The translations under genes and the position numbers were made by a program. This document shows, in pieces, positions 2,680 through 21,577 of a stretch of DNA of 22,143 bases. The notes under the pieces are model-generated. The model was not told the origin of the DNA and did not search any database. It worked only from the letters and a program-made list of their open reading frames with translations. Within the stretch, counting starts at the first letter, position 1; each line of letters opens with the position of its first letter. The DNA comes from a virus: positions 1 through 22,143 of the IMG/VR virus record IMGVR_UViG_3300011126_000200, one strand, 5' to 3'.

Positions 2680-2967
2680 TCAACCAATATACTCATCACA
2701 ATACCTCAACAAGCGATCTATATTCTCTGTGTTAGTTTTATGTTGTTTCTTTACTACAGTAGCAGCCGTAAGACTCTTATATTTTTTAAAATCATTAAAC
2801 AATTCTTCTATCTCCTCTTCTAGCTCTTCTTCTTTTTTCATTAGTTTAGGGTGATGTATACCAACTTTGTCTTTCTCAAGTAAATATATAATATCCAACA
2901 GAATTTTTTTAACTTCCTTATGGGTATGATTCAGCTTTAATATAGATATGAGATTTTTATTTAGCAT
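2680..2967 (-). CDS. Small coiled-coil protein of unknown function
   Basis: Product of 95 aa starting MLNKNLISILKLNHTHKEV. Residues about 35-65 are extremely rich in Glu and Lys (MKKEEELEEEIEELFNDFKK) with hydrophobic residues spaced as in a coiled coil. The start overlaps the end of the probable small terminase by 11 bases, so the two are translationally coupled. In phages a small coiled-coil gene beside the small terminase is common, but nothing in the sequence assigns a specific role. Confidence 0.65.
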   Translation of the reverse strand: MLNKNLISILKLNHTHKEVKKILLDIIYLLEKDKVGIHHPKLMKKEEELEEEIEELFNDFKKYKSLTAATVVKKQHKTNTENIDRLLRYCDEYIG

Positions 2968-3514
2968 TGTTATTATCTAAAACCTCTTTTATTACTCTGA
3001 CTTTTGCTAGGATATCTTCTACACTATCAACTTTAACTTCTCCTGGCTCTTCCTGTGAATTAGCTATGATATTAGCCTGTGTAGTCACTACAGACGATAA
3101 CTGTGTAGCTTCTTGAGTGCTTAACTCTCCTTTTTCTAATCCTTTCCAGATAGATTCTATACGAGCAAGTGGCGTTGCATCCTTCGATATTTTAACTTTT
3201 GCTTTACCATACCCAAAGCGATTACGCATCATTATTGACCAATAAGCAACATTAAAATCCGGGTCATCTTTTGGATATCGCGCCCATATTCTCGCGGCTC
3301 TATTAATTATAATATCATGAGCGTATTGAAATTCTTCATGCTTATGTAACCATATATTAAATGTGGTTTGTCCAATAGTGGCCTCATCACAAAAGGCTTC
3401 AACACCCTCTCCTGCCCCGTAAACATCAAACAACATACCTATATGCTTGTCTCTTTTATATTTAGTTGGTTGCCCTACTGTAACGTGTTTTACAAACTCT
3501 TCTTTAGTTTTCAT
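2957..3514 (-). CDS. Probable phage terminase small subunit
   Basis: Product of 185 aa with a textbook ribosome site (AAAGGAGG) before ATG 3514. Small terminase subunits bind pac or cos DNA and start genome packaging with the large subunit. The product shows the order usual for this group: an N-terminal GQPTKYKRDKH stretch, a helix-turn-helix (about residues 38-60, ending TTFNIWLHKHEEF), a helical segment, then FNVAYWSIMMRNRFGY, which resembles the N-x-x-x-W-x-x-x-x-x-N segment of many podophage and siphophage TerS proteins. The C-terminal 70 residues are helical and polar, as expected for oligomerisation or TerL contact. No large subunit lies nearby, which is odd because the pair is normally adjacent. 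A generic HTH regulator is the alternative. Confidence 0.65.
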   Translation of the reverse strand: MKTKEEFVKHVTVGQPTKYKRDKHIGMLFDVYGAGEGVEAFCDEATIGQTTFNIWLHKHEEFQYAHDIIINRAARIWARYPKDDPDFNVAYWSIMMRNRFGYGKAKVKISKDATPLARIESIWKGLEKGELSTQEATQLSSVVTTQANIIANSQEEPGEVKVDSVEDILAKVRVIKEVLDNNNAK

Positions 3515-5570: not shown

Positions 5571-6164
5571 TCATCCTTTTTTAGTATTGTTTATTATGAT
5601 TTTTTTTAATTCATCGCAGCTTTTTTCGCATATTAAATATTGCCCATTTAGGCATTTGTGAGCTTTGAGAATCTTGCTATTTAGCAAACCCCAAATGTTG
5701 CATAGTTTTGTATCAAGAATTTCTGCCGCTTTTTTTGAAGTCACACATCTCACAAATTCATCTGGTATCATTATTTTAGCTATTTCTTCTTCAGTTAAAA
5801 CTTCCGTGAATTTTTCGTTTCCAGGACTAACAATTTTATTATTGCAGTTATAAAAATCCCACCATTTTTTTATAGTACCGTAGCTTATGTTCTGCCCAAA
5901 AAAATTATGACTATTTCTGTTTATAGCATATAACGTAAAGCCTTTTTGCCCTTTCTCTATAACTTTGTTTAGATCATTAACGGTGAATTTATCATATCTA
6001 GTTAAGCCTCTTGGCCAACTTTTATATTGAAAACAAGTCCTACGTAATTTTCTCCTCACGGTCTTTGGCACACTCGGTTTTACATATTCACCCATTTTAC
6101 TAGGTTGGTTACCAAACATAGACAAAATACTGGTCGTATAATGCTTTAATCTTGAAATAATCAT
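5571..6164 (-). CDS. Helix-turn-helix protein next to the DnaA-like initiator
   Basis: Product of 197 aa whose ATG overlaps the stop of the DnaA-like gene (ATGA), so the two are translationally coupled. The N-terminal 60 residues are basic (TVRRKLRRTCFQYKSWPRGL). Residues about 85-105 (ISYGTIKKWWDFYN) look like a recognition helix. Residues about 145-190 (SKKAAEILDTKLCNIWGLL and then HKCLNGQYLICEKSCDELKKII) resemble the small winged HTH of excisionases and MerR-like proteins. A role in replication control or as a partner of the initiator is plausible from position. I do not recognise a named family. Confidence 0.65.
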   Translation of the reverse strand: MIISRLKHYTTSILSMFGNQPSKMGEYVKPSVPKTVRRKLRRTCFQYKSWPRGLTRYDKFTVNDLNKVIEKGQKGFTLYAINRNSHNFFGQNISYGTIKKWWDFYNCNNKIVSPGNEKFTEVLTEEEIAKIMIPDEFVRCVTSKKAAEILDTKLCNIWGLLNSKILKAHKCLNGQYLICEKSCDELKKIIINNTKKG

Positions 6165-7426
6165 TTTTTACTCTTGTTTAAAATTTGTTTGTATAAAAAT
6201 TCTATAGGTTTTTGGTCATTGTTTTCATATTGCAGCACTAGGCTTTTCTTCGTATTTAGCACGGCTATTTCAATTGAAGGAGAAAACCTTTGAAATATTT
6301 CATCGATATAAAAAGCTCTCGCTCGAACAATTATATTATCATCCTCAATCCTTATGAAATTTAGATTATCTAGCCATGCAGACTTCAGGTGATCGTAGTA
6401 ATCCAAAGGAAAATGCTCAAGTATCTTTGTTTTCATATCATTCCATTCGTAATTGGCGTATTTGGGGGTGGCTGGCGGTTTCTCTTCCTCCTTAGAGACT
6501 TTTACAACAGATAATTTTAGTTTTTCTGGTTCAGTAGACGAGGTGTTGACCATCTGTACATCATCACCGTAGAGCTTACGAACACAGGATTTTATTTTTT
6601 GTTTATTCTCACTGGATATAGCAAAGCTAGGATTTATGTTGATGGCTATTTTACTAGGTGTAACCTCCTCAAAAACACAATTTTCTATGATCTCTTCACT
6701 GGTTTTAGTATCAAAATTACGGAATATCTCCGATGATAACAGCGTTATGGGTTTAACTTTTTCTGTGTTCACGGTCTCCTCCTCGTTTGTTTCAGAATTA
6801 GTTGGAATTTTTTTTATTATTAATTTTTCCTTATTAGAAAAAGTATAAGAAGCTTGTGCTTCTTCTACTTTTTCCTTATCATACATATAGTTGGTACATA
6901 AATGTTCGGATGTCACAACATTTATGTTTGACTTCAATGACTTATTCGATGCTGCATTCAGGGCTAATTCCTCGTTATAAATTTTATCAATACTTTCATC
7001 TTTGAAATTTAGGATTTTATGAGCATCTTCAGTGAAAGAAATTTCGTATACATTACTCAATAAAGCTCCTTTTACTACTAATTTTCTATGCAGCTGGAAA
7101 TCAAAAATATGATTTATTTGACTTCTTATTCTCCCGTTTTGTGTACTCGTTGTTACTTTTAGGATTTTAGAGAACCAGTAGTTATCTTTAAAGACAGCTC
7201 GGTTATTATTCTTTTGTAGCTCAAGTATCAATTTACCGATTAGTCTTGATGCTTTAAAAGAAACCACCTTTTCTGAATCAGAAGCCCTACAGATGTCATA
7301 CCAATCATCATCCGTTTTAGTGTAAGCTTTTACAACGTTGCGCTTCTTATACGAACTTATGTAGACAACATCACCTTTTGCTTTACGAGCGACTTTCTCC
7401 TTTTTGTATATTTTAGCTTTGCTCAT
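6161..7426 (-). CDS. DnaA-like plasmid/phage replication initiator (wHTH plus DnaA domain I)
   Basis: Product of 421 aa starting MSKAKIYKKEK. ATG 7426 has GGGG 7 bases upstream and overlaps the preceding gene by 14 bases; ATG 7480 would overlap much more. After a basic N-terminus, residues about 55-135 form a probable winged-helix DNA-binding domain (KNNNRAVFKDNYWFSKIL, then IRSQINHIFDFQLHRKLVV). A long low-complexity linker follows. Residues about 326-400 closely follow the pattern of DnaA domain I: WNDMKTKILEHFPLDYYDHL, then WLDNL, DDNIIVRARAFYIDEIF, and IEIAVL. There is no AAA+ ATPase core, so it is not chromosomal DnaA. Rickettsia plasmids carry DnaA-like initiators, which I take as the closest match. 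DnaA domain I normally recruits DnaB helicase, so this protein probably binds an origin and loads host helicase. A second such protein is at 10754-12025. Confidence 0.65.
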   Translation of the reverse strand: MSKAKIYKKEKVARKAKGDVVYISSYKKRNVVKAYTKTDDDWYDICRASDSEKVVSFKASRLIGKLILELQKNNNRAVFKDNYWFSKILKVTTSTQNGRIRSQINHIFDFQLHRKLVVKGALLSNVYEISFTEDAHKILNFKDESIDKIYNEELALNAASNKSLKSNINVVTSEHLCTNYMYDKEKVEEAQASYTFSNKEKLIIKKIPTNSETNEEETVNTEKVKPITLLSSEIFRNFDTKTSEEIIENCVFEEVTPSKIAININPSFAISSENKQKIKSCVRKLYGDDVQMVNTSSTEPEKLKLSVVKVSKEEEKPPATPKYANYEWNDMKTKILEHFPLDYYDHLKSAWLDNLNFIRIEDDNIIVRARAFYIDEIFQRFSPSIEIAVLNTKKSLVLQYENNDQKPIEFLYKQILNKSKK

Positions 7427-7727
7427 TACTTTCCCCATTCTTGAGCTTTGTCTGCATCTTCTTTTCCTTCCTAATTCCACGCTCCCTTTCAGCAGCCATT
7501 CTTAATATTCTCATGCAAGAATCGGTCTCATCTACATACTCAGCTACTTTATTAAGCGCAACCCTACTGTCTTTTGAAATTGCATTTAACTTGCAGCGAA
7601 TACTCATATATTCCTCTGAGGAACAATCCATTACACAACTTTCGATATAGTCCAAATCATCATTAGTAGTTAGCCACATATAAATGTTTGATATAAACTT
7701 GCGTGTGTCATCAATTGTGTATTTCAT
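7413..7727 (-). CDS. Small helical protein of unknown function
   Basis: Product of 104 aa starting MKYTIDDTRKFISNIYMWL. It is helical and Cys-containing (ESCVMDCSSEEYMSIRCKL), with a basic C-terminus (RERGIRKEKKMQTKLKNGE). The Cys spacing does not match a zinc site I know. The ATG overlaps the stop of the 45-aa gene upstream (ATGA), and its end overlaps the start of the DnaA-like gene by 14 bases. The position suggests a part in replication control; the sequence itself does not show one. Confidence 0.65.
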   Translation of the reverse strand: MKYTIDDTRKFISNIYMWLTTNDDLDYIESCVMDCSSEEYMSIRCKLNAISKDSRVALNKVAEYVDETDSCMRILRMAAERERGIRKEKKMQTKLKNGESNEQS

Positions 7728-7861
7728 TTTTTATACTTCTCATTTAATTCATCTATTAAATCAAGCAACGTTACTACATCATTGAAAGTAGCATCTGTTT
7801 TCTGCATTGTTCTCTTGATTCGATCGGCTACAGTTACCGCGTCTTCTAATGTTTTCTTCAT
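7724..7861 (-). CDS. 45-aa helical protein of unknown function
   Basis: A short ORF starting MKKTLEDAVTVADRIKRTM and ending LLDLIDELNEKYKK. It looks like two amphipathic helices. It is credible despite its length because its TGA stop overlaps the ATG of the next gene (ATGA), matching the tight coupling of the whole leftward operon, and because its composition is protein-like. No clear Shine-Dalgarno is seen before it. It may be a small regulator or a partner of the 104-aa protein; this is not known. Confidence 0.55.
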   Translation of the reverse strand: MKKTLEDAVTVADRIKRTMQKTDATFNDVVTLLDLIDELNEKYKK

Positions 7862-7896
7862 GTAAAATACTTGTTATATATTGAGTTTAGGGATGA

Positions 7897-8205
7897 TTAT
7901 AATTCTAACACTTCGTAAAAAGTGTCCGTATATTCAATCAAAATTGAAATATGCCTGTTTCGTTTGTCTTTTTCATCCTTAGAGATTGAGATTACTCCTT
8001 TCTCTTCAAAATAATTTAAGGCCTTATATCTAATTGATCGTTCAGCAAACGACCAAATTTCTTCTAAAATGCAGTCTGGCACTTGGGCGTTATCAGATTT
8101 CATAAAAAGCACTAGTTTTTTAAATAACAACCAATATTGCCATCTAACATTTTTATCCTTTAGGCGCTTATGTAGAATATCTTCGTTGCATAATAGTTGT
8201 CTCAT
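7897..8205 (-). CDS. Winged-helix regulator-like protein (MarR-like C-terminus)
   Basis: Product of 102 aa, first gene of the leftward operon and divergent from the symporter gene. Residues about 70-95 (ERSIRYKALNYFEEKGVISI followed by KDEKDKRNRHISI) fit the recognition helix and wing of MarR-type winged-helix proteins. The N-terminal half (WQYWLLFKKLVLFM, PDCILEEIWSFA) is helical and hydrophobic, as in a dimer or DNA-binding core. It is shorter than usual MarR proteins (about 140 aa). Its place at the head of the operon, beside a divergent promoter region, suggests it controls the replication operon, the symporter, or both. Confidence 0.6.
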   Translation of the reverse strand: MRQLLCNEDILHKRLKDKNVRWQYWLLFKKLVLFMKSDNAQVPDCILEEIWSFAERSIRYKALNYFEEKGVISISKDEKDKRNRHISILIEYTDTFYEVLEL

Positions 8206-8325
8206 AGAATAAAATACCTCTGCTTAACTTTTAGGACTTTGAAGCTATCAGAATATATGATATAAAAACAGAACTATTGGGTAGCTAAATGCTACTTTTA
8301 ATTTTCATTAATCTCGCTTTAGGCC

Positions 8326-9789
8326 TTGAATACATTGACTTTTGACCATATTTTAGTATTATTATTTTTTTTATATCTTCTTTATCAAAGTTGTAGAAAA
8401 ACTAACACTATTCATGGAATCAATACTTATGCTATTGGTAACAAAACCTTCTCTACCTTCTCTTTAGCAACCACTATTACTGCTACTTGGGTAAGTGGCA
8501 GTGGTCTAGTATTAGATTTATCCGAATTTCACAAAGAAGGATTGACATACTTTGTTGCTTCCTTAGGTATGTGTCTTACTGCCGCTATTGTGGGTTATTA
8601 TATAGTACCTAGAACAGCATCTTTTTTAGGTAAAACTTCTGTGGCAGCAATTATGGGAGATAATTATGGTCAATCTTCTAGATACATAACATCTATACTT
8701 GGTTGCCTAACCTCTTGCGGAGGCATAGCTATTCAATTTAAAATTATGGGTGATGTAATTCATGTCTTATTTCCATATGTCGATTTAAGGATTTGTATGT
8801 TTTTTAGCGCTATGTTAGTTACTTTTTATACATACTCAGGAGGAATAAGAGCCGTCGTTAAAACTGACGTTATCCAAGCTATATGTTTTTCAGTATCTCT
8901 CATCATAGCTATAGTGATGTTTAATACGAGCGTAGATTTAACTAACACTCCCGATGCTTCATTAGATAAATTTCAACTTTCTTACTTATTTTCGCTTGAT
9001 AATACACAGAAAATAGATCTATTGCTTCTGTTCCTATATTTTCTAATCCCTGAAATGAAACCGCATATCATACAACGCATTTCTATGGGAGCTACTCTTA
9101 AACAAGTAAAAAGGGCTTACTTATATTCATCAATAGCCTTAGTTATAGTTTTAATCTTAACTTGCTGGATTTCCTACTTGATCTATCTATTAGACCCTAC
9201 TATTCAAAAAAAGGAAATTTTAGGCTTTTTGATCAATCATTATACTATCGCAGGAACAAAAGGGATATTAGTGATTGGTATGATTGCTATGTGTATGTCT
9301 ACCGCGGATTCCAAACTGAATATATCAGCAGTTCTAATAGCTAATGATTTTTGGAAACTCAGTAAACAAGATCCTATACAAAAAATGCATAACGCTCGGA
9401 AAATAACCTTGTTAATAGGAGTTCTGAGCTTTTGTATGTCAATTAATTTTATAGATGCTAGTTTGCTAGATATAATATTAATGTCTTCTAGTCTTTACGC
9501 ACCCGCTATATCAGTCCCAGTATTAATGATAATCTTTAAATTTAAATTCACCGAAAGATGTGTGCTTATCTCTATGGTAGCCGGATTATCGTGCGTAGTG
9601 ATATTCAAGTGGATACTTGCTGTATCATTTCCCGTGGTTACTATTGGTTTAGGAGTTAATCTTATTGCTCTAGTATCTAGCCACTACATAATAGAAAAAT
9701 GGGAATTGCTAAGATGTTTCGGGATAAAATCCTATATCAAAAATGATTCTATCCTAATTTTAAACAAAGTAATAAAAAACAAACCATGA
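8326..9789 (+). CDS. Sodium:solute symporter family protein (SSF)
   Basis: Product of 487 aa with about 12-13 hydrophobic segments. SSF proteins use the sodium gradient to import solutes such as proline, pantothenate or sugars. Supporting motifs are the N-terminal INTYAIGNKTFSTFSLATT stretch followed by WVSGSG, and TYSGGIRAVVKTDVIQA at residues 169-185, which is the SSF signature region. STADSKLNISAVLIANDF near residue 325 is also typical of the family. The substrate cannot be told from sequence. The frame has no ATG near the start: TTG 8326 or TTG 8335 must be used, as a stop lies at 8320-8322. Ribosome site is weak. The length is normal for a stand-alone SSF; there is no fused histidine kinase. 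It overlaps a 43-aa ORF by 4 bases. A transporter is unusual inside a phage-like element: it may be cargo or a host gene. Confidence 0.85.
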   Translation: MNTLTFDHILVLLFFLYLLYQSCRKTNTIHGINTYAIGNKTFSTFSLATTITATWVSGSGLVLDLSEFHKEGLTYFVASLGMCLTAAIVGYYIVPRTASFLGKTSVAAIMGDNYGQSSRYITSILGCLTSCGGIAIQFKIMGDVIHVLFPYVDLRICMFFSAMLVTFYTYSGGIRAVVKTDVIQAICFSVSLIIAIVMFNTSVDLTNTPDASLDKFQLSYLFSLDNTQKIDLLLLFLYFLIPEMKPHIIQRISMGATLKQVKRAYLYSSIALVIVLILTCWISYLIYLLDPTIQKKEILGFLINHYTIAGTKGILVIGMIAMCMSTADSKLNISAVLIANDFWKLSKQDPIQKMHNARKITLLIGVLSFCMSINFIDASLLDIILMSSSLYAPAISVPVLMIIFKFKFTERCVLISMVAGLSCVVIFKWILAVSFPVVTIGLGVNLIALVSSHYIIEKWELLRCFGIKSYIKNDSILILNKVIKNKP

Positions 9790-9917
9790 AAACAGCACGT
9801 CCCACAAAGGAAATAGATGATAAAGACGAATATGAGCCATCTGAGCAGCAAAAAAGGAAATCAGAGCTTATGGTTAGGATAGATAAGTTTTTGAAGCTAC
9901 ACGTCTCCTCTAGCTAG
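9786..9917 (+). CDS. 43-aa polar protein coupled to the symporter gene
   Basis: A short ORF starting MKTARPTKEIDDKDEYEPSE and ending RIDKFLKLHVSSS. Its ATG overlaps the symporter stop (ATGA), a strong sign of translational coupling. It is highly charged with no membrane segment. The C-terminal part (KSELMVRIDKFLKLH) could form one strand and one helix, a little like the start of an RHH protein, but it is too short to assign. It converges with the gene at 9910-10215 and overlaps its end by 8 bases. It could also be chance; coding status is uncertain. Confidence 0.45.
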   Translation: MKTARPTKEIDDKDEYEPSEQQKRKSELMVRIDKFLKLHVSSS

Positions 9918-10215
9918 TAAAGAACGCTATTTTTAGCAATAGTCCAAATATACCAACTATCGCAGCTTTTAACCACTTAAGATCAGTTTTGATTTCAACT
10001 ACATCAGTTTTTGTAGCCATATTCTCTTTGATGTTATTAATTTCACCCTTGATAATATCAATATCAGATTTTGTAGCTAAAACTCGTTTATCCTTCTCCG
10101 CTTCCAGAAATTCGCTCTTTGATACAAAGTTAGCAACCCAAATCTCGGCTTCTTTTTCTTTTACTCCCGAACCTATCAGTTGCTTAATGATTGTGTGTGT
10201 GTCTAGTGTTGCCAT
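9910..10215 (-). CDS. DUF1640-like coiled-coil protein with C-terminal membrane helix
   Basis: Product of 101 aa. The N-terminus (ATLDTHTIIKQLIGSGVKEK followed by EAEIWVANF) follows the pattern of DUF1640 proteins, which are frequent in Rickettsiales and related to the mitochondrial CCDC90/MCUR1 group. Residues about 35-75 form a coiled coil with two similar segments (LATKSDIDIIKGEINNI and MATKTDVVEIKTDLKWL). The last 20 residues (AAIVGIFGLLLKIAFF) form one membrane helix. The ribosome site AAAGG lies upstream. The role in bacteria is not known. Its presence supports a Rickettsiales-like source. Confidence 0.7.
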   Translation of the reverse strand: MATLDTHTIIKQLIGSGVKEKEAEIWVANFVSKSEFLEAEKDKRVLATKSDIDIIKGEINNIKENMATKTDVVEIKTDLKWLKAAIVGIFGLLLKIAFFTS

Positions 10216-10307
10216 ACTTTACCTTTTGTTTCTTTACTTTGCTATACGTTGCTTTACTTCTTTTTGGCTTTTCTATCTTCGGTTAGATGTTCAGCTAATG
10301 CCAAAGA

Positions 10308-10339
10308 TTCAGTTAACGAATTGACCAGTCAATGAATTG
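10308..10339 (-). repeat. 16-base imperfect tandem duplication at the end of a gene
   Basis: On the minus strand, CAATTCATTGACTGGT (10339-10324) is followed at once by CAATTCGTTAACTGAA (10323-10308); 12 of 16 positions agree. The unit is not a multiple of three, so gain of one copy would shift the frame of the gene at 10309-10656 and give its present stop. Confidence 0.5.
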
Positions 10340-10656
10340 AATGTTTTAATTTTATGCATAGTTTTGGGATCGGAAATACCATAACATACTATATGTTGAC
10401 ATAATTCACTCGATTTTTCCATATACATATTATTTTCACAAGATACGCCTACTTGTACTTTCCTCCCTTCTGACAAGTACTTAGCTTGTTTAGCCTCTAC
10501 TACATCTAATATCTTGATTATTTCCATTGGTTCAATAAACATTTTAAGCATTTTTTTAGCTTCGTTTTTTTCTATTCCTTCCTCATTTATTAGATACATA
10601 ATTATAAGTTCTTTTGTCAAACCCTTAGTTATCAACTCTTTTGCTATTTTCGTCAT
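10309..10656 (-). CDS. Small unknown protein, 3' end probably frameshifted
   Basis: Product of 115 aa starting MTKIAKELITKGLTKELI, with GAAAGG before the ATG. The N-terminal half is helical (LINEEGIEKNEAKKMLKMF); the rest is mixed and has two Cys (VSCENN, ELCQHIVCYG). The end, FNSLTGQFVN, is suspect: a 16-base imperfect tandem duplication spans the stop, and without it the frame would continue for about 14 codons more (SLTESLALAEHLTEDRKAKK) to a stop at 10254-10256. It lies just downstream of tRNA-Gln on the same strand and could share its transcript. Function unknown. Confidence 0.6.
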   Translation of the reverse strand: MTKIAKELITKGLTKELIIMYLINEEGIEKNEAKKMLKMFIEPMEIIKILDVVEAKQAKYLSEGRKVQVGVSCENNMYMEKSSELCQHIVCYGISDPKTMHKIKTFNSLTGQFVN

Positions 10657-10677
10657 AGTTTACCTTTCTGTTTATTT

Positions 10678-10752
10678 TGGCTGGGATAGGAGGGTTCGAA
10701 CCTCCGACTTACGACACCAAAAATCGTTGCTCTACCGCTGAGCTATATCCCA
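10678..10752 (-). tRNA. tRNA-Gln(UUG) with encoded CCA
   Basis: Full cloverleaf on the minus strand: acceptor TGGGATA/TATCCCA, D stem GCTC/GAGC with loop AGCGGTA, anticodon stem ACGAT/GTCGT (one T-G pair) with loop TTTTGGT giving anticodon UUG, variable AAGTC, T stem GGAGG/CCTCC with loop TTCGAAC, discriminator G, and genomic CCA at 10680-10678. UUG reads CAA and CAG (Gln), and CAA is the expected main Gln codon in such AT-rich genes. It starts one base after the stop codon of the DnaA-like gene and precedes 10309-10656, so it may be processed from a shared transcript. It may be element cargo or a host gene used as an integration site. Confidence 0.93.
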
Positions 10753-10753
10753 A

Positions 10754-12025
10754 TTAATATTTTATTTGTAACACTTTTAGAGTTCTAACACTAGCATAAC
10801 CAACAGCATTAGCCTCCTTTAAAATCTTTTGCTGTATCGAATCACTAAGTTCTATTGCTGATGTTAGATGAACCTCTAACACTCCCCCATCAATATAAAA
10901 ATTCCTTAATTTAGAAAGAAAATCATAAGCTACGCCTGGTGGCAATGTGTTAGCTAGCTTGGCTTTTAACTGGTTATTAGGGCTTACATGCATTATTGCC
11001 TCTTGTTCTATTTTATCCAAAAACTTCTCCCGTTGTACAAAATTAGTTTGTTCAATTATGTCCGATTCAGTCATGTTAGCCTTTATCTGATAATTTAGAC
11101 GGCTAGTTTCAACAGCATCTCGTTTTTCATACCTATAAATTTTGCTCATATAAGCTAGAAAAGCATCTTTGGAGGGGAACTCATGCGCAGACTCCTTTGG
11201 TTTATTAGCCAAAGCAAGTAATATCTCATTCATTGCGTTTAAAGTAAAATCCCTACCTGATCGGCTTTGGAGATCGGAGCAATCCGCAGCTGTTAGGGGA
11301 TGATGCTCAGATAAATTCTTAGTTTGTGGGTATTGATTATTAAACATTGGTCGGTAAATCGTAGCTTTTTTCTGCGCATTGGTGTTTTTTTTCCTTCTGT
11401 TTGCGGCAAGTGCTTTTGTTACAGGATAATTATCTTGTAAATTCGAATCTTCAGTCTGAATTTGCAAGGGAAAATTCCCTGAAGGTAAAGAAAATACATT
11501 TAAAGAATTAGATGATAGATCTATATCTTCAATAGGTTTATTTTCTTCTTGTATATAGAGTGTTTCGTTGGCATGGGGCTTATTTGTCCCTATAACACTT
11601 TCTGTATCAGGCGTATTTACTGGTATTTCTGACTTAAAAGCAAACTCATAACAATGACGATATTTTTTGCCATTATGAGTGATGGTATTATGGCGAGTAA
11701 TCTCAAATATATCTCTCAATTGATCAATTAATCTTAAGTTCTGTCTTCTTGTGCAAAAAGTAATTGTGGAGAGATATTTATGATTGAAAAAAACTCTATG
11801 CCCTTTTGTTAGTTTTCCTACGGCTACACCAGCTATATTCTTTGCATGATTACACAAGAGCGTAGTTCTTTCATGCACCGCATGATCATTTTTATTGGCT
11901 CTTTTGATAGTATCCCAATTCATATAAGTTTTTCTGTAAAAAGATTTTGCATCCTGGAAAGATAGAAGTTTTCCTATTTGTCCGTTGTATTCTGCTGTTT
12001 GTTCTTGTCTTAATGCTGATCCCAT
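10754..12025 (-). CDS. Second DnaA-like replication initiator (wHTH plus diverged DnaA domain I)
   Basis: Product of 423 aa starting MGSALRQEQTAEYNGQIG, with AAGAG before the ATG. Residues about 50-130 match the winged-helix region of the protein at 6161-7426: VFFNHKYLSTITFCTRRQNL then DQLRDIFEITRHN and YEFAF here, against VFKDNYWFSKIL, QNGRIRSQINHIFDF and VYEISF there. A basic linker follows. The last 75 residues (QLKAKLANTLPPGVAYDFL, DGGVLEVHLTSAIELSDSI, ASVRTLKVLQI) follow the DnaA domain I pattern but lack the usual Trp. No AAA+ core is present. The likely role is origin recognition and helicase recruitment in a plasmid-like replicon. It is divergent from 12293-12571, so an origin or shared control region could lie in 12026-12292. 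Having two initiators may mean two replicons were joined, or a duty split between them. Confidence 0.6.
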   Translation of the reverse strand: MGSALRQEQTAEYNGQIGKLLSFQDAKSFYRKTYMNWDTIKRANKNDHAVHERTTLLCNHAKNIAGVAVGKLTKGHRVFFNHKYLSTITFCTRRQNLRLIDQLRDIFEITRHNTITHNGKKYRHCYEFAFKSEIPVNTPDTESVIGTNKPHANETLYIQEENKPIEDIDLSSNSLNVFSLPSGNFPLQIQTEDSNLQDNYPVTKALAANRRKKNTNAQKKATIYRPMFNNQYPQTKNLSEHHPLTAADCSDLQSRSGRDFTLNAMNEILLALANKPKESAHEFPSKDAFLAYMSKIYRYEKRDAVETSRLNYQIKANMTESDIIEQTNFVQREKFLDKIEQEAIMHVSPNNQLKAKLANTLPPGVAYDFLSKLRNFYIDGGVLEVHLTSAIELSDSIQQKILKEANAVGYASVRTLKVLQIKY

Positions 12026-12067
12026 TTCAAAACTCTTAAATTTTATTGTTTTTTATAAAATAAAGCG

Positions 12068-12096
12068 TTGACTTTTTGACATGACCATACTATTAT
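12068..12096 (+). promoter_or_regulatory. Sigma70-type promoter candidate in the divergent region
   Basis: TTGACT (12068-12073), a 17-base spacer, then TATTAT (12091-12096). It points towards the wHTH gene at 12293, leaving a leader of about 190 bases. The rest of 12097-12292 shows no ORF or long repeat to me. Confidence 0.5.
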
Positions 12097-12273
12097 GAAG
12101 TTGTCTCTTACTTCAGTTTTTTTAGGTTCTGTTTCGTTTCGCCAAAAACCTTTACTTTTTCTCTTTCTCTTCTTTCTTCACACTTAATCTCTACATAAAA
12201 TATCCTTAGGTAATAAAAAAACTATCAAATAAATTATTTACTTGATATTCTTCATATTAAAGATTATTAATTC

Positions 12274-12287
12274 AACTTAGTCAAGTT
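12274..12287. promoter_or_regulatory. Small inverted repeat just before the wHTH start, operator candidate
   Basis: AACTT and AAGTT flank a 4-base centre, ending 5 bases before ATG 12293. The half GTCAAGTT (12280-12287) recurs in inverted form as AACTTGAC at 12611-12618, overlapping the -35 box of the next promoter. This would suit autoregulation by the wHTH protein and control of the recombination operon, but 8 bases can recur by chance in AT-rich DNA. Confidence 0.3.
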
Positions 12288-12292
12288 ATATA

Positions 12293-12571
12293 ATGAAGAG
12301 AAACATAATGATATTAGTAGAAGCAATTAGAAATACCGAATTATTGCCACCAAAACAAAAGCTTACTTTAGAAGTTATTTGTTCATCTGAATATCCTTTA
12401 ACCAGTAAGATGATTCAAAAAAAACTCAATACTACAAAGCAAAGAATGGATTATAGCTTAAAAGCTTTGTTAAAAAGAAATTTTATAAAACAAGGAAAGG
12501 ATGGGAGTCTTATATACACGCCTAATGACACAAGGATGGAAGAGTTGATAAAAAGACATGAATGTCATTAA
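12293..12571 (+). CDS. Small winged-helix DNA-binding protein
   Basis: Product of 92 aa starting MKRNIMILVEAIRNTEL. It fits a compact winged helix: helix 1 (QKLTLEVICSSEYPLTS), helix 2 (KMIQKKLNT), recognition helix (TKQRMDYSLKALLKRNFIKQ), and a wing (GKDGSLIYTPND), then a terminal helix. Such folds occur in ArsR/MarR-like regulators and in phage and archaeal control proteins. It is divergent from the DnaA-like gene and upstream of the recombination operon, so a switch role between replication and phage functions is plausible. No ligand site is visible. Confidence 0.65.
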   Translation: MKRNIMILVEAIRNTELLPPKQKLTLEVICSSEYPLTSKMIQKKLNTTKQRMDYSLKALLKRNFIKQGKDGSLIYTPNDTRMEELIKRHECH

Positions 12572-12613
12572 TTAGACGATTAAACTATTCTGTTTATTTT
12601 TTCGATAATTAAC

Positions 12614-12641: not shown

Positions 12642-12660
12642 AGCCTTATGAACAAGGCAT

Positions 12661-12695: not shown

Positions 12696-12748
12696 GCCTA
12701 GTTTATTTTTTAATCAGCAACGATCGCAATTTAAACAAGGTTAGTATT

Positions 12749-13417
12749 ATGAACACTATCAAAAATATACTAAGAAAGCAACAGCTTTCTAACGCAAACT
12801 TCTTGACTAAGTCTGAATTAGACGAAATATTAGCTAGGGTAGAAAAATCTAAGAATTCTACAACCTCTGCTAAAATCAACTCATCTAATAATAATGAGTT
12901 GAACAATATGACCAAATCTTTTATTCCAAATTGGGAAGGTGGAAGTGCAGCTAAAGCGCAAGAAGCACTAAAAGTTACATCAAAACCTGAAGGTGGAATT
13001 TCTGAAAATAATAAAATAGCCACCCCTAATTTATCAGAAATTCCAACTTTTAATCAAATCCGAGAAACTCAACGTGATGATTTCGGTATTCCAGCTTCTG
13101 AAGTTGGAGCTATAATTAATCGCAAAGCTAAGAGAAGTTATGATAACTCTTTATTGTCTATAGAAAATCATAGAACACTTCAAAAGGCCGATGAATACGG
13201 TATTGAATATGATATTAATAAACTCAATTTCGTTACTCTTCCTGAAAAGATAGCAGAATTTGAAGAATTAATCATAGATGCTGAAGAGGTGGGTATAAAT
13301 TGGGAAGATTTTGGTTATGATGTAATCGCTATAGTGCAAAGTATAGAAGAACGTACATCAGAGGAATTTCATCATAATCAAGATATTCGCTGGGATTATC
13401 TAGGCTCTACACTTTAA
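12749..13417 (+). CDS. Unknown 222-aa protein, first gene of the recombination operon
   Basis: The product starts MNTIKNILRKQQLSNANFL, with AAGG about 9 bases upstream of the ATG. The N-terminal 110 residues are polar and probably disordered (rich in Asn, Ser, Lys). The C-terminal half is folded-looking and acidic (DFGIPASEVGAIINRKAKRS; LPEKIAEFEELIIDAEEVGI; WEDFGYDVIAIVQSIEERT). No known motif is visible. It precedes 13436-13726 and the Bet/exonuclease pair, so a role as an early phage protein or a recombination accessory is inferred from position only. Confidence 0.7.
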   Translation: MNTIKNILRKQQLSNANFLTKSELDEILARVEKSKNSTTSAKINSSNNNELNNMTKSFIPNWEGGSAAKAQEALKVTSKPEGGISENNKIATPNLSEIPTFNQIRETQRDDFGIPASEVGAIINRKAKRSYDNSLLSIENHRTLQKADEYGIEYDINKLNFVTLPEKIAEFEELIIDAEEVGINWEDFGYDVIAIVQSIEERTSEEFHHNQDIRWDYLGSTL

Positions 13418-13435: not shown

Positions 13436-13726
13436 ATGGAATATTCAGAAGGCAAAACTTTGTTTAATGCGGTATTTATTAAATGCGAGTTCGTGGGCAA
13501 AACGCCAAAAATTAAAGTACATTTTAAAGACGTTTGTAAAAAAGATCATGACGAATTTGTTTGTGATGCGCTAGTTATTACAAATCTTAGTAATAACGAC
13601 AATATAAGCGAACAAATAGTACCTTTTAGCACTGGTCAATATGTAAGCTTTAATGCTGATAATGACTTTAAAAATATAAAATTCACAGATAAAACAATTG
13701 TAGGTAATTATGGAAAGTATGAATAA
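13436..13726 (+). CDS. Small beta-rich protein upstream of Bet
   Basis: Product of 96 aa starting MEYSEGKTLFNAVFIKCEF. Most of it alternates hydrophobic and polar residues, as in a small beta barrel (KIKVHFKDV, CDALVITNL, QYVSFNADND). In phages a single-strand binding protein often sits next to Bet or RecT, so an OB-fold SSB-like role is possible, but I see no diagnostic residues. Its end overlaps the start of the Bet gene by 17 bases. Confidence 0.65.
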   Translation: MEYSEGKTLFNAVFIKCEFVGKTPKIKVHFKDVCKKDHDEFVCDALVITNLSNNDNISEQIVPFSTGQYVSFNADNDFKNIKFTDKTIVGNYGKYE

Positions 13727-14567
13727 TTTAGAAAAAAAAGAACAAGCGCAAATAGCAAAAACCCATAATGAATATGGGATTGACTCTTCTATTTGGTCGG
13801 CACTTAAAAATAGCTTATACACTGGAGCTAAAGACGCAAGTATTTTAATGGTTTTAGATTATTGCAAGGCTGGTAAATTAGACCCAATGCAAAAGCCAGT
13901 GCATATAGTGCCAATGAAAATTAAAATTCCAGGAACTAGAAATTCTGAGTGGAGGGATATTATAATGCCAGGTATTGGCTTATATCGCATACAAGCAGCA
14001 CGCAGTGGTAAATATGCCGGTGTTGTTGAGCCTGAATATGGCGAAGATGTAACAACTACCTTAGGCAAAGTAAAAATGACCTATCCCAAATGGTGTAAAG
14101 TTACGGTGAAAAAAATAATAGATGGGATAGTTGTTGAGTTTTCCGCAAAAGAATATTGGATGGAAAATGTGGCTATTAACTCTGAGTCTCAAGCACCCAA
14201 TATGATATGGTCTAAGCGACCATATGGACAACTTGCAAAATGTGCTGAAGCGCAGGCGCTGCGTAAGGCATTTCCTGAATTTGTTAGCCAGCACCCAACA
14301 GCGGAAGAAATGGAGGGGAAAAGCCTTAATATCAAAGATGATGATAAATGGCAAAAAATAAAAAAAGTAGAAGAAAGTAAAAACGAAGAAGTAGAAGTTG
14401 TAAAAGAATTAATAGACTTATGCAAAGATAACGAGATAGACGTTGGGAAATTCGCCACTTTTCATAATATCAATAGCAGTGATAAGGAAACGGTAAAAAA
14501 TGGCATTATGAATTTTTTCAAATTTAAAGAGCAGTTTTTAAATGTCGCAGATACAGTTACACAATGA
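13710..14567 (+). CDS. bet: Phage recombination protein Bet (RecT/Redbeta family annealase)
   Basis: Product of 285 aa. Redbeta-type proteins coat single-stranded DNA and anneal it to complementary strands, working with a 5'-3' exonuclease. Supporting pattern: an N-terminal helix pair, then ASILMVLDYCKAGKLDPMQK followed by PVHIVPMKI (about residues 42-72), the block DIIMPGIGLYRIQAARSGKY, and the C-terminal core PYGQLAKCAEAQALRKAFPE followed by F. These follow the order seen in the Bet/RecT family (PF03837). The tail from about residue 200 is Lys/Glu-rich. The start could be ATG 13710 or 13719. The 3' end overlaps the exonuclease gene by 26 bases, the classic partner arrangement. Confidence 0.85.
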   Translation: MESMNNLEKKEQAQIAKTHNEYGIDSSIWSALKNSLYTGAKDASILMVLDYCKAGKLDPMQKPVHIVPMKIKIPGTRNSEWRDIIMPGIGLYRIQAARSGKYAGVVEPEYGEDVTTTLGKVKMTYPKWCKVTVKKIIDGIVVEFSAKEYWMENVAINSESQAPNMIWSKRPYGQLAKCAEAQALRKAFPEFVSQHPTAEEMEGKSLNIKDDDKWQKIKKVEESKNEEVEVVKELIDLCKDNEIDVGKFATFHNINSSDKETVKNGIMNFFKFKEQFLNVADTVTQ

Positions 14568-15201
14568 TATAGAGCAAGGTAGTGAGGAATGGCTAAAGTT
14601 AAGGCTAGGTAAAATAACTGGTTCTTGTTTTTCTAAGTTACTTGGAACTAAAGCAGCGCGTGAGAAATATCTTTATAGTAGAGCTAATGAAATAGTAACA
14701 GGTTGTATAGAAAAAACGAAAGCATTTTATAGTGAAGATGTCCAGAGAGGGCATGAATACGAACCTATAGCAAGAAATGAATATAGGTTTAATAACTTCA
14801 AAGTTACCGATGTTGATGAAGTAGGGCTAGTACAATTGAACGATTACATAGCTTGTTCTCCCGACGGATTAGTGGGAGAGGACGGAATGATTGAGATTAA
14901 ATCACCAAACCCCAATAATTACTTTAGACAGGTTGTAGAGATCTCTCAGAAGGGCGTAGAGGCTATTTCAAATGAGCATAGATGGCAAATGCAGTTCAAT
15001 TTGTTCGTTTGTTCTAGAAAATGGTGTGATTACGTGCTATATAACGACGAGCATGCAACTAAAGGTAGTGGGTTGTTTATATTTAGAGTTAATTACGATA
15101 GTGAAATGCAAAAGTTAATTACCGAAACAATTGATAAATGTATACCTATGATAAAGGAGTACGTGAATCAATATAATAAAATTTTTAAACTAGGAGAATA
15201 A
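14542..15201 (+). CDS. YqaJ/lambda-Exo type recombination exonuclease
   Basis: Product of 219 aa, close to the lambda Exo length of 226. These enzymes degrade 5' strands of duplex ends to give 3' overhangs for Bet. Motifs in order: QGSEEWLKLRLGKITGSCFS (residues 12-31, with the Arg-containing start of YqaJ domains), RGHEYEPIARNEY (about 69-81), SPDGL with Asp108, EIK with Glu118 and Lys120, and HRWQMQFNLF with Gln149. Asp108, Glu118 and Lys120 correspond to the metal-binding D...ExK core of the PD-(D/E)xK fold, so the enzyme looks active. It overlaps the Bet gene and is followed by a tandem-HTH gene. Confidence 0.92.
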   Translation: MSQIQLHNDIEQGSEEWLKLRLGKITGSCFSKLLGTKAAREKYLYSRANEIVTGCIEKTKAFYSEDVQRGHEYEPIARNEYRFNNFKVTDVDEVGLVQLNDYIACSPDGLVGEDGMIEIKSPNPNNYFRQVVEISQKGVEAISNEHRWQMQFNLFVCSRKWCDYVLYNDEHATKGSGLFIFRVNYDSEMQKLITETIDKCIPMIKEYVNQYNKIFKLGE

Positions 15202-15203
15202 TA

Positions 15204-15677
15204 ATGACTAACACACGCTGTACAATAATTGATAAACAGGTGGCTAATAACGTCAAACAAATGAGATTAAAAGGAGGAATTAGTCAGAAAATACTAGGAG
15301 AAGTGGTAAAAGTTAGCGTTCAACAAATTCAAAAATATGAGAATGGTGTTAATAGAATATCAGCCTCCACATTGTTATTAATGGCTAGGTTCTTTAAAGC
15401 TCCTCTTGAAGATTTTTATCAATATACATTACCTAACGATAATATTAAGCCCATTGAATGGTGTTCGACAATAAAGAAAAGTATTGCGGATAATATAATG
15501 AAAATAAGAAAAACTTACAAAATGAATCGTCATGAACTAGCCTATAAACTTAATATACCTATAGAACAGGTTATTAATTACGAGAAAGCACATGATGAAA
15601 TACCCGGTACAATTATATATAAGCTTTCAGTTATTTTTAACAAACCAATCACTGATATTTATGCTAAAATATCATGA
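15204..15677 (+). CDS. Regulator with two XRE-type helix-turn-helix domains
   Basis: Product of 157 aa, with AGGAG before the ATG. Domain 1 is at about residues 10-70 (VKQMRLKGGISQKILGEVVK, VSVQQIQKYENGVNRISAST, LLLMARFFKAPLEDFY). Domain 2 is at about 95-155 (IMKIRKTYKMNRHELAYKLN, IPIEQVINYEKAHDEIPGTI, YKLSVIFNKPITDIY). Both are HTH_3-like; domain 1 keeps the usual S-Q-x-x-L-G pattern while domain 2 is more diverged. Single- and double-HTH proteins of this kind are frequent in Rickettsiales genomes and their phages. As the last gene of the recombination operon it could be a repressor or late-gene regulator. Its stop is directly next to the stop of the convergent gene. Confidence 0.85.
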   Translation: MTNTRCTIIDKQVANNVKQMRLKGGISQKILGEVVKVSVQQIQKYENGVNRISASTLLLMARFFKAPLEDFYQYTLPNDNIKPIEWCSTIKKSIADNIMKIRKTYKMNRHELAYKLNIPIEQVINYEKAHDEIPGTIIYKLSVIFNKPITDIYAKIS

Positions 15678-16013
15678 TTAAATTTCAGTAATGGTAATAC
15701 CATAGAGGGCTTCTACCTGTTTCTTTTTTAAGATATACATAGGAGTCCTCATACCCTTCACATCCTCAACCGTAGCGTTTCCATCTTTCCAAAAACAGAA
15801 AAAATCACTTATGTATTTCGTGTTCCCAGGTAAATGCCAGGGAGTCTGTCTTATGAAAAACAATAACTCCCCTGATTTTTTAAGCAGTCTCAGTTCTCTA
15901 AAACGTTTTGCCTCTTTTTTAGAGGCAAACTTAATTCCGTCTACCTCTGTTGGTATTGCTCTGAATTTATGTTTAATAATTATACATCCATCTCTCAGAT
16001 TTAGGTATCTCAT
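15678..16013 (-). CDS. DUF1064 family phage protein (possible endonuclease)
   Basis: Product of 111 aa. The core KHKFRAIPTEVDGIKFASKK, then EAKRFRELRLLKKSGEL, YISDFFCFWKDG and TVEDVKGMRTPMYILKKKQV match the layout of DUF1064 phage proteins. Y-x-S-D-F and x-E-D-V-K-G resemble the D...ExK-type core of small nucleases, so nuclease or Holliday-junction activity is plausible for the family. The first 14 residues before IKHKF are not typical, and they overlap the end of the upstream gene by 41 bases, so translation may start later, from a non-ATG codon. It ends the leftward virion operon. It usually sits with phage DNA-metabolism genes, so its place behind virion genes is somewhat unusual. Confidence 0.8.
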   Translation of the reverse strand: MRYLNLRDGCIIIKHKFRAIPTEVDGIKFASKKEAKRFRELRLLKKSGELLFFIRQTPWHLPGNTKYISDFFCFWKDGNATVEDVKGMRTPMYILKKKQVEALYGITITEI

Positions 16014-18227: not shown

Positions 18228-19691
18228 TTATTTTAAATAACTTGCTACTGACTTTGCTTTTGGCGGCAATTTCTTAATAGAGCTACCTCTATGTTTTCTT
18301 ACATTTCTTAAAAACTTATCAAACTCTTTAGCTCCTGCGGCATTGTTACCATCTCCTACATGAGCAACAGCATCAGCAGGGATAACATATTCACCATCGG
18401 AAAGTGCAGCGTCTATTTTATCCTCTTGACCCTTAGTATCTCCTTGAATAAAACGCCCTAATCCAGGTGGATAATCAGTATCTTCAATCTCTACTTCGTA
18501 CATCACATGGGGAGAAACTGCCCCGCCTTCGTTATAATAATTTACCCATTTTCCCTGTTGTTGGCGTTCATCTGGGGTATTACTTCTGCTAAATAGGGGA
18601 GTAATATTACCTAATCGTTCCTCTGGTAAGAACTGGTTTCTAGCTATTCTTCTTTTTCTTTGAGCGTCAGAAAGCTCCTCTTCCTCGCTTGATCTCATTG
18701 CTTTTTGCAGGCGCTTATATTCCTCCCCTTGTTGTTCAGGAGTTTTTTCTTTTGGTTGGTTCATCATCTGTCCAGCAACAGAGCCTAAAGCTAAAAGATT
18801 TGCAGGTTCAGTTAGAAGTTTTTCAAGTAAACCTTTTTTAGCGGCCTCAGTTACTGCCGTTTTAGCTGCCTCAGCTGCTGCTGTTTTAGCTGCCGCAGAA
18901 GCCGCAGCAGATCCAGCTTTAGCAGCTGTTGCAGCTCCAGTTTTAGCAGCTCCTGCTGCACCCGCAGCTTCGCCTCCAAACATACCTCCCAGACCTATAG
19001 AAGGTAATACTGCATTTGCCGCTCCATAATTACTTAGGGATGCTCCAAGGCCTTTAGCTCCAAGCGCACTTGCTCCGCTACCAAGAAGACCTGCTGCTGT
19101 AGGCAGAGCTAATCCCATCATACCGCCTCTAAGCGCAGATTGCCCCATATCATTACGACCACGAGCTACAGAGCCAGCAGCACCACCGAATGCTCCTCCT
19201 AAAACACCACCAATACCAGGGAGCATTATATTACCAAGTATAGCTCCAGCAGCAGGGCCTATAACAGACTTAAACCATTTCCCAGGCCTATTAAAAATAC
19301 CGAATTGAGGCAATCCTGTTACTGGATTAATTTCACCACTACCGCCCATTTCTTTTAACATCATAGCTTCTAATGGGTTGATATGAGCTAATACAGTGTC
19401 TTCCTCACCCCCTTGTTGCCTAATATTCTCAGCTACACCTGAATAATCTAGTCCTTCTTTACCGCCTGTTTTTTTCTTTACTTTTCCACCCTTAGCATAA
19501 GTGGCCATGTTACTATTTGGAACATTAGCGTTAGGAGTAAATTGAGAAGGATCAACGGGATAAGAATTATTATTTATCATATTAGGCAATAAACCACCTT
19601 GACCATATGAATTTATAGGCATCTGAGCAGGATATTGAGCTGCATAGGGATCTACGTTTTGATAACCATTATTAAATCTTGTATTAAACAT
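18228..19691 (-). CDS. Gly/Ala-rich probable virion protein with membrane-active segment
   Basis: Product of 487 aa, with GAGG before ATG 19691. Regions in order: an Asn/Pro/Tyr-rich start; YAKGGKVKKKTGG (about residues 65-77); EDTVLAHINPLEAMMLKEMG (about 97-116); a glycine-zipper hydrophobic stretch (GPAAGAILGNIMLPGIGG, GGAFGGAAGSVARG); an Ala/Lys-rich helix (about 240-285); an acidic-basic middle; and a C-terminal DAALSDGEYVIPADAVAHVG then AAGAKEFDKFLRNVRKH. The last pattern, SDGE(Y/F)V, ADAV and the following helix, recurs in podophage internal proteins. The glycine zipper could cross or perforate the host membrane during DNA entry, which is inference. It lies between the small gene 19713-19973 and the 747-aa gene. 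Confidence 0.65.
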   Translation of the reverse strand: MFNTRFNNGYQNVDPYAAQYPAQMPINSYGQGGLLPNMINNNSYPVDPSQFTPNANVPNSNMATYAKGGKVKKKTGGKEGLDYSGVAENIRQQGGEEDTVLAHINPLEAMMLKEMGGSGEINPVTGLPQFGIFNRPGKWFKSVIGPAAGAILGNIMLPGIGGVLGGAFGGAAGSVARGRNDMGQSALRGGMMGLALPTAAGLLGSGASALGAKGLGASLSNYGAANAVLPSIGLGGMFGGEAAGAAGAAKTGAATAAKAGSAAASAAAKTAAAEAAKTAVTEAAKKGLLEKLLTEPANLLALGSVAGQMMNQPKEKTPEQQGEEYKRLQKAMRSSEEEELSDAQRKRRIARNQFLPEERLGNITPLFSRSNTPDERQQQGKWVNYYNEGGAVSPHVMYEVEIEDTDYPPGLGRFIQGDTKGQEDKIDAALSDGEYVIPADAVAHVGDGNNAAGAKEFDKFLRNVRKHRGSSIKKLPPKAKSVASYLK

Positions 19692-19712: not shown

Positions 19713-19973
19713 TTATTCGTTATTCATTATCAAATAGACGGTTTTCGCCCATTCTTGCCAATCTTTGAAGGATTCCTTTTTAACCCCTTTCTCAATAGAA
19801 AATGGAGAAGGAACGGATTTACGTGCAAAAACACCTGTTCCAACTAAGGATGCACCCCACTCTTTCCATTTAGTATCATCTTCTAAAATAGGAATATAAG
19901 TATCTGGATAATCAATTGCTAAAGCTCCGCTCCAATTATTCAAAGATATGTATTCTGGCCAAACTACTTGCAT
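19713..19973 (-). CDS. Small conserved-type podophage structural or accessory protein
   Basis: Product of 86 aa starting MQVVWPEYISLNNWSGALAI. It is rich in Trp (six) and Pro, with a middle FARKSVPSPFSIEKGVKKES followed by FKDWQEWAKTVYLIMN. Proteins of about this size with a P-x-P-x-x-F and a F-x-x-W-x-x-W-A pattern occur next to the stabilisation protein gene in podophages. Its ATG shares a base with the upstream stop (TAATG), so the two are coupled. Specific role unknown. Confidence 0.6.
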   Translation of the reverse strand: MQVVWPEYISLNNWSGALAIDYPDTYIPILEDDTKWKEWGASLVGTGVFARKSVPSPFSIEKGVKKESFKDWQEWAKTVYLIMNNE

Positions 19974-21577
19974 TATCGAGCATCCCCCACACCAAGTAAC
20001 AACGTTATATTGCCAGCTTCAAAAAATTCATCTGAGGCAAATGTAAGCCACATATTACGTCCCTGAACTCTCATATCAAGTTTTTCTGTATCAGCCGTAA
20101 ATGATATTAGATCGGTAACTACTGCATCGCTTTGAGGGTATTCTTGCGTGTGAACTTCTACTGTAAAATGAATAACACCATCTTGTTCATTAACAACAAA
20201 ATCAGGTTCTATTCTTTGTAAATCTATCCATCTATTGACTAATTTAGGGGATTTATCGTCTGTACCAGAATTTGGAGGAAATGCTGACCATGAAAATACA
20301 GGCGTGGTGAAATACGAAAATATAGAGGTTATACTTGTATTACCAGTGCTAAGAAGGGCCTCTTGTTTATTTCCTACCTCATGTTTCCAAAGATTATTTA
20401 CTTCATTATTTTCTTCTTCTATAAGAGATTTTCCATGTGTACTTAAAAAACCAAAATCACTAGAAAAAACGCCGGCAGTTCTTGAGATATCCGTATCGTA
20501 CCAAAGGTTATCTCTTTTGTTGTATATTAAGGCTCTTGAGTTATCACCAGGGACACCTTTTACTGGATAAAACCACCATATCTCACCATATTTTGTATTC
20601 TTCACGCCAAAAACTTGTTGGCGTCTATCTAGGTCAATATTGTCATAAAAATAATTAAGATTCATGCTATTATCCAGTTCTTGAACAATCCCGTTATAAA
20701 CAAAGAATCTATCAGTCCCAGGCCAGAAAAATAGCCCGTCATATTCAACTACACATTTACTAGATAAAATAGATGAGCTGTTTGATAGCACATCAGGTTT
20801 AAACAAGTCTTCATCATTTAGTCCAATATTACTAACTCTTACAACAGTAGATAAAGTCCAAAAAAGGATAGTAGGACTATTAGAGCCACCACGAATTGGA
20901 CTCCCATAAATAACTTTATCAGAAGAAATAACTATAGACCCGCTATCGTTTTCATCACCTTCATCATCTTCTCCTCTAAAATCAAACGGATTATTGGAGG
21001 CACTATATTGAACTAAGCCATTAGAACCGTACAAAAAGAGATAAGGAGAGCTAAAAACCAAACCACCATTAATTAATGGATTAACTCCTGCAATAGGATT
21101 GTCTTCAACTACTCCCTCAGTTGCAGTATCAATATTTTTTCTGAAAAATATTGATTGAGTTTTTCCTTCATTTATATTTAATGCATTATGGGTTTTCATA
21201 AATACTACATAGGTTTTACCAGCTCCTTTATCAACAACGGTTTCTGACTCCCACATTTGCGTATTAACTAAAGGCGTATTGTTAATACTATTACTGCTAA
21301 TATAATTCCATTTGGGAGAATTAATTTGCGTTATAAGTCCTAGTTCACCACAAATAAAAACTAAAGATTCCCCTCCTTCTTTCCAAGGGAAAATCATCAT
21401 TTTAGTAACTCTTTGCGTTAGAAAAAAGTTTCCCGAACCTTTCATTCCACCTATTTTTCTAACCTTTCCCCTTTGGAATCTCACCCAGTTTCCATCAGTA
21501 CAATATTTTGATTGAAACTCTGTGCCATCTCTTTTGATGCCTGGACTATATGTAAGTGGAAAAAGATTAGCTGCCAT
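19973..21577 (-). CDS. P22 gp10-like packaged-DNA stabilisation / tail hub protein
   Basis: Product of 534 aa. In P22, gp10 plugs the portal after packaging and holds the tail needle. Support here: an N-terminal RDGTEFQSKYCTDGNWVRF followed by QRGKVRKIGGMKGSG, typical of this podophage group; short repeating beta-rich segments as in a beta-propeller; YSASNNPFDFRGE; and YGEIWWFYPVKGVPGDNSRA then LIYNKRDNLWYDTDISRTAG, a conserved block of these proteins. The length is somewhat above the 472 aa of P22 gp10. Its ATG overlaps the stop of the adaptor gene (TAATG). Identity to P22 itself looks low, so the call rests on layout and context. Confidence 0.65.
   Translation of the reverse strand: MAANLFPLTYSPGIKRDGTEFQSKYCTDGNWVRFQRGKVRKIGGMKGSGNFFLTQRVTKMMIFPWKEGGESLVFICGELGLITQINSPKWNYISSNSINNTPLVNTQMWESETVVDKGAGKTYVVFMKTHNALNINEGKTQSIFFRKNIDTATEGVVEDNPIAGVNPLINGGLVFSSPYLFLYGSNGLVQYSASNNPFDFRGEDDEGDENDSGSIVISSDKVIYGSPIRGGSNSPTILFWTLSTVVRVSNIGLNDEDLFKPDVLSNSSSILSSKCVVEYDGLFFWPGTDRFFVYNGIVQELDNSMNLNYFYDNIDLDRRQQVFGVKNTKYGEIWWFYPVKGVPGDNSRALIYNKRDNLWYDTDISRTAGVFSSDFGFLSTHGKSLIEEENNEVNNLWKHEVGNKQEALLSTGNTSITSIFSYFTTPVFSWSAFPPNSGTDDKSPKLVNRWIDLQRIEPDFVVNEQDGVIHFTVEVHTQEYPQSDAVVTDLISFTADTEKLDMRVQGRNMWLTFASDEFFEAGNITLLLGVGDAR

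Follow-up and report, generated by a model that had tools for sequence, protein, structure and literature searches.

What kind of element carries plasmid-type replication initiators beside the genes of a virus particle? The question is raised by a stretch of viral DNA of 22,143 bases, the complete IMG/VR record IMGVR_UViG_3300011126_000200 (hereafter the window). An earlier reading of the letters alone (the sequence-only reading) had noticed two DnaA-like initiators near podovirus virion genes and proposed a candidate phage-plasmid of a Rickettsiales-like host. Both initiator open reading frames (ORFs) are present, and we call their products RepA and Rep2. The proposal has gained ground: there is a circular relative with a complete set of virion genes, a like gene set lies on closed plasmids of Candidatus Megaera polyxenophila, and RepA falls in a rickettsial initiator family. 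The window has no terminal repeat and is therefore a fragment, very probably, by gene content and homology, of a phage-plasmid 50-60 kb in size. Its host would be a Rickettsiaceae endosymbiont, either Candidatus Megaera or something closely related to it.

Searches with RepA and with Rep2 both led to one IMG/VR contig of 52,934 bases, G001 (best segments 79% and 52% identical). Over its full length the window matches this contig in reversed order, with a few unmatched islands and about 65-95% DNA identity. G001 has a 21-nucleotide direct repeat at its ends, and its major head (capsid) gene leaves one end and resumes in frame at the other. Given this overlap and the in-frame split of the capsid ORF, G001 therefore closes as a circle of 52,913 bases. 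It encodes a large terminase (TerL; phrog_38, 1e-84), a portal (phrog_1216, 3e-17), the head protein, the window’s connector proteins and both Reps. TerL, portal and capsid, which the sequence-only reading had expected to be sought beyond the window, are thus all present in this relative. By sequence, the plasmid-family initiators, the RecT/exonuclease module and the virion operon form one colinear element.

The same genes occur together well beyond G001. An alignment scan found RepA at 48 IMG/VR loci and on one 62.7 kb contig of a Rickettsiales metagenome-assembled genome, which carries terminase as well. Terminase is present in all eight RepA-bearing IMG/VR contigs of at least 50 kb, five of which have exact terminal repeats of 20-127 nucleotides, and a gene comparison showed portal, capsid, connector, terminase, RecT and RepA to be common to nearly all compared relatives. 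Of 12 virus contigs, 10 have ParA and one has an integrase (PF00589). ParA is also present in two closed plasmids (CP113869 and AP017967); the window does not reach the corresponding part of the genome. The one phage-integrase match among the virus contigs, at G032:17127-17594, lies in a frame of 184 amino acids (aa) that is possibly truncated. A replicon combining plasmid initiators with phage genes had been thought unusual; the combination stands, but it marks a widespread lineage and is not unique.

The two closed plasmids, both from the protist symbiont Candidatus Megaera polyxenophila and both deposited as plasmids, are circular: CP113869 (unnamed2 of strain NDG2) has 64,423 bases and AP017967 (pPCS109) has 109,307. 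Like the window lineage, they carry RepA, a divergent helix-turn-helix (HTH) gene, the exonuclease and RecT, together with TerL, portal, capsid, connector and late genes. They differ in protein sequence (40-50% identity), in a RepA that is shorter at its C-terminus, and in having ParA and host-type cargo on what were deposited as plain plasmids. In a RepA tree their RepAs fall within the clade from virion-bearing environmental contigs, and neither virion-bearing nor plasmid RepAs were supported as the earlier. The plasmid pPCS148 has the Rep/RecT/exonuclease module with conjugation genes and a full-length Rep2 relative (40%); the module is therefore also common to ordinary plasmids. CP113870.1, a closed Megaera plasmid of 57 kb, has RepA, RecT, the exonuclease and TerL with no portal or capsid match, and is perhaps a decayed or satellite form. 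It also encodes a B-family polymerase, a primase-helicase and two giant SecA-like ORFs. AP017967.1, with two RepA-family genes, two ParA loci and a nonribosomal peptide synthetase cluster, looks as if a phage-plasmid had fused with another plasmid.

RepA is 79% identical to its counterpart in G001 and 41-46% identical to those on Candidatus Megaera plasmids, and all its BLAST matches in PLSDB lie on Candidatus Megaera/Megaira plasmids. The sequence-only reading had likened these initiators to those of Rickettsia plasmids. Simple BLAST found no such direct link; it appears with profile search only, and there the family relationship holds. The RepA profile matches 39 of 263 Rickettsiales genomes, often in several copies. 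In the conserved central and C-terminal region, two Rickettsiales plasmid-like proteins score 95 and 70 bits with it. The match at 95 bits covers residues 394-630 of a 774-aa protein on a contig of 62,829 bases. By homology, then, RepA is a member of the rickettsial DnaA-like plasmid initiator family. The initiators of Rickettsia plasmids of the pRAM18/pRAM32/pRF type are homologous to it in the centre and C-terminus (95 bits over 237 aa); they are longer (774-826 aa against 423 aa) and their N-terminal parts are not common. We know of no virion genes on Rickettsia plasmids with such initiators. They have a parA partner, and several Rickettsia species support the replication of shuttle vectors built with dnaA-like and parA genes (PMC3244465). 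By analogy, this autonomous replication may serve as a functional precedent for RepA.

Among the marks of a phage-plasmid, virion genes are present in the window itself, with TerL, portal and capsid known from G001 and the closed plasmids. The plasmid-type initiator is RepA, with its homologues on Megaera and Rickettsia plasmids. The window is a linear fragment; the circles are G001, from the overlap of its ends, and the closed CP113869 and AP017967.

The two initiators resemble each other as had been proposed. Their N-terminal stretches are 26% identical over 104 aa (two-sequence BLASTP, E 3e-5), and the profile of each family matches the other protein. Pfam finds no AAA+ or Bac_DnaA domain in either, in agreement with the sequence-only reading, so that both lack the AAA+ ATPase and the DnaA-box-binding domain IV of a canonical DnaA. 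In AlphaFold models RepA has a helix-strand-helix-helix-strand-strand winged helix at 59-130 and a C-terminal alpha-alpha-beta-beta-alpha-beta unit at 349-420; Rep2 has a winged helix at 75-149 and two such C-terminal units, at 244-304 and 342-418. RepA also has a conserved central domain (SGRDF.LNAMNEIL...F.SK..F.AY...EKRDA). Global confidence (pLDDT) is low, 65 for RepA and 60 for Rep2, and local domains are better predicted. Rep2 was taken to start at 7426, which is probably right because the resulting 421 aa equal the orthologue length and the MSKA start is kept in relatives.

Foldseek against the PDB matched DnaA domain I (4tps) with a probability of 0.91-0.96 for RepA and 0.75-0.80 for Rep2 (TM 0.6 on the target). 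RepA also matched the helicase loader DciA and a plasmid Rep-DNA complex at E >0.01, and no match of either protein had an E-value <0.01. Models and fold matches support both domains, weakly. A PDB sequence search gave no credible match for either Rep, and Pfam DnaA_N scores under threshold in both. Longer RepA homologues on Megaera plasmids carry a C-terminal DnaA_N over the curated cut-off (45-57 bits), which independently supports the DnaA-domain-I reading of the RepA C-terminus. Together the models and matches suggest that the C-termini of RepA and Rep2 are DnaA-domain-I-like and their N-termini winged-helix-like.

Rep2 is a mosaic. Its C-part is much closer to that of G001 than its N-domain is (Table 1), and compared with another IMG/VR contig, L116, the order is reversed (N-domain 49%, C-part 27%). 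Across the lineage, several very different Rep2 N-domains are joined to one and the same C-part. The HTH gene beside RepA has likewise diverged between the window and G001, in flanking DNA that is 80-90% identical. It appears that the DNA-binding N-domain of Rep2 has been exchanged between genomes, and its divergence with that of the HTH gene is the pattern we would expect from an exchange of replication and immunity specificity. More tentatively, RepA may serve plasmid maintenance and Rep2 lytic replication, a split like that of P1, with the Rep2 N-domain and HTH gene as a swappable compatibility or immunity cassette that lets near-identical phages coexist in one endosymbiont. What favours this division of labour is CP113869, where no Rep2 was found beside RepA, and the fact that RepA is the gene most widely common to virion-less plasmids.

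Several observations weigh against a phage-plasmid. The window is only 22 kb and has no TerL, portal or capsid, which are inferred from G001. Iterons or tandem repeats, the signature of an origin, were not found near either rep gene in the window, and no Rep-linked repeat cluster stood out in the relatives. The DnaA-domain-I and winged-helix assignments depend on low-confidence models and weak fold matches, and the lineage is known from sequence. A circular contig can also come from a terminally redundant lytic phage, and ParA was found neither in G001, the closest complete relative, nor in G045. These last two points bear on the alternative of an obligately lytic phage with a circularly permuted genome, one that took over plasmid initiators to replicate lytically and is never maintained as a plasmid; permuted genomes are expected to give circular contigs, and the clade carries a tRNA gene. 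We consider such a phage improbable. In Megaera strains the lineage is represented by closed plasmids, ParA is present in most relatives, and the double-XRE repressor-like gene, the divergent HTH gene and the accessory cargo genes all speak against it.

A plasmid that has picked up virion genes and, through domestication or decay, can no longer form particles would explain CP113870, with Rep and TerL and no portal or capsid match, and the many insertion sequences and cargo genes of AP017967. We give it a slight chance: complete, open and conserved virion sets occur in many independent environmental contigs and therefore point to purifying selection that maintains particle formation. Still harder to credit is a piece of prophage in a chromosome, perhaps inserted at tRNA-Gln. 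The tRNA-Gln beside RepA is 91% identical to a chromosomal tRNA-Gln of a Rickettsiales genome (G300), but G001 closes as a circle with this tRNA internal, and there are no host housekeeping flanks among the window ORFs. As the sequence-only reading had noted, no integrase is visible: neither the window nor G001 has a PF00589 match (serine recombinases were not searched for). For want of an integrase, and given its internal position in G001, the tRNA-Gln was rejected as an attachment site. It is 85% identical in G001, and no other scanned relative has it.

For the phage-plasmid that we favour, a working cycle can be proposed. Between infections, the DNA would persist as an extrachromosomal circle. 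RepA would bind the origin through its N-terminal winged helix, and its C-terminal DnaA-domain-I/DciA-like unit may stand in for a full AAA+ DnaA in recruiting the host’s DnaB helicase, while the HTH regulators would silence the late genes. On induction the genome would be amplified, perhaps with Rep2, RecT and YqaJ would recombine genomes into concatemers, and terminase would package the DNA into particles.

The window is laid out in three parts (Table 1): Rep2 and RepA on the minus strand, a plus-strand block at 12293-15677, and minus-strand virion and late genes at 15973-22143. The plus-strand block runs in the order HTH gene, two conserved hypotheticals, RecT, YqaJ exonuclease and double-XRE protein. 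The Bet/exonuclease pair of the sequence-only reading is confirmed by Pfam and PHROG, and its podovirus structural operon by matches to virion proteins at 19973-22143; ‘podovirus’ fits the gene set. The small terminase is weakly borne out, by a marginal PHROG match and a conserved orthologue.

Table 1. Features of the window, with the evidence for each.
Feature	Position	Strand	Evidence
Probable terminase small subunit	2957..3514	-	PHROG E 0.018, weak; 73% orthologue in G001
Rep2, second Rep, mosaic	6161..7426	-	N-domain 31%, C-part 83% to G001
Na+/solute symporter, cargo, between Rep genes	8326..9789	+	not in G001; closest homologues among plasmids are those of Megaera
tRNA-Gln(TTG), immediately downstream of RepA	10678..10752	-	also in G001
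RepA, DnaA-like replication initiator, 423 aa	10754..12025	-	sequence, profile and fold searches
RepA/regulator intergenic region, candidate promoter or origin site	12026..12292		position; no iterons found
Winged HTH/MarR-like regulator, divergent from RepA	12293..12571	+	38% identity to G001 counterpart
Conserved hypothetical, rep-recombination module	12749..13417	+	84% in G001; weak homologues in all compared relatives
RecT/Bet-type single-strand annealing protein	13710..14567	+	PF03837 1.8e-23; phrog_2449 4e-102
YqaJ-type exonuclease, RecT partner	14542..15201	+	PF09588 1.5e-19
Two XRE/Cro-CI HTH domains, candidate repressor	15204..15677	+	HTH_3 2.2e-19, two stretches
DUF1064 / phage Holliday-junction-resolvase family	15678..16013	-	family match
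Conserved late protein, 747 aa	15973..18216	-	common to closed Megaera plasmids
Conserved late protein, probable virion/ejection, Ala/Gly-rich	18228..19691	-	conservation, gene comparison
Virion structural protein, phrog_3287 family	19973..21577	-	2.5e-24; 66% in G001, 29-47% in relatives
Virion structural protein, phrog_2941 family, cut by contig end	21577..22143	-	2.7e-14; 82% in G001

Two further features were seen in the window and G001. Tandem paralogous small ORFs, with an N-terminus like MTKxDNLDxRKQKLKEQVIDLYxxKQIS, lie at 383-2699 in the window and at L009:12135-17988 in G001. G001 has about ten of them, the window several; identity is 78% among copies and at most 95% between elements. 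G001 also has eukaryotic-style leucine-rich-repeat-like ORFs (L008:18978-19898 and L009:10848-11519), possible host-interaction cargo.

Phage-plasmids of the P1, N15 and AB types likewise combine virion genes with plasmid replication and partition and do not need integration; their replication and virion genes are unrelated to those described here and their hosts are free-living. To our knowledge, Wolbachia WO is the known phage case in Rickettsiales. The Wolbachia plasmids pWCP and pWALBA1 are circular Rickettsiales plasmids with TerL, portal and phage stabilisation genes, but they have few packaging and structural genes only and the paper does not mention DnaA; their particle formation was left open by the authors (PMC9560607). 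Caedibacter pKAP and Candidatus Bealeia pBealeia1 are phage-derived plasmids of protist endosymbionts (PMC7297999), unlike in their R-body genes and in belonging to different host orders. Bealeia has relatives of the portal (35%) and TerL (29%), and BLAST found no RepA-family gene on pBealeia1. A closed plasmid of Candidatus Bealeia paramacronuclearis, NZ_CP133271.1, with portal, terminase, a GroES-like gene, a Mu-gpT-like head protein and six RebB R-body genes, is apparently another protist-symbiont phage-plasmid.

Phage-plasmids as such, and packaging genes on Wolbachia plasmids (PMC9560607), were thus already known. What appears new is that a phage carries a rickettsial DnaA-like initiator, that one genome has two Reps and, as proposed above, that genomes have exchanged the DNA-binding domain of Rep2. 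In the open-access literature searched (subscription papers and supplements lay outside the search) we found no report of Megaera phage-plasmids, of phages with a rickettsial DnaA-like initiator, or of a Rickettsiaceae phage with a complete virion gene set.

If this picture is true, a lineage with the properties of plasmid and phage at once would account for the spread of genes and plasmids among obligate intracellular symbionts, which seldom encounter other bacteria. Transfer by particles could then be tested directly in cultures of the ciliates and algae that host Megaera. The results also suggest a new annotation for several Megaera ‘plasmids’ in the databases.

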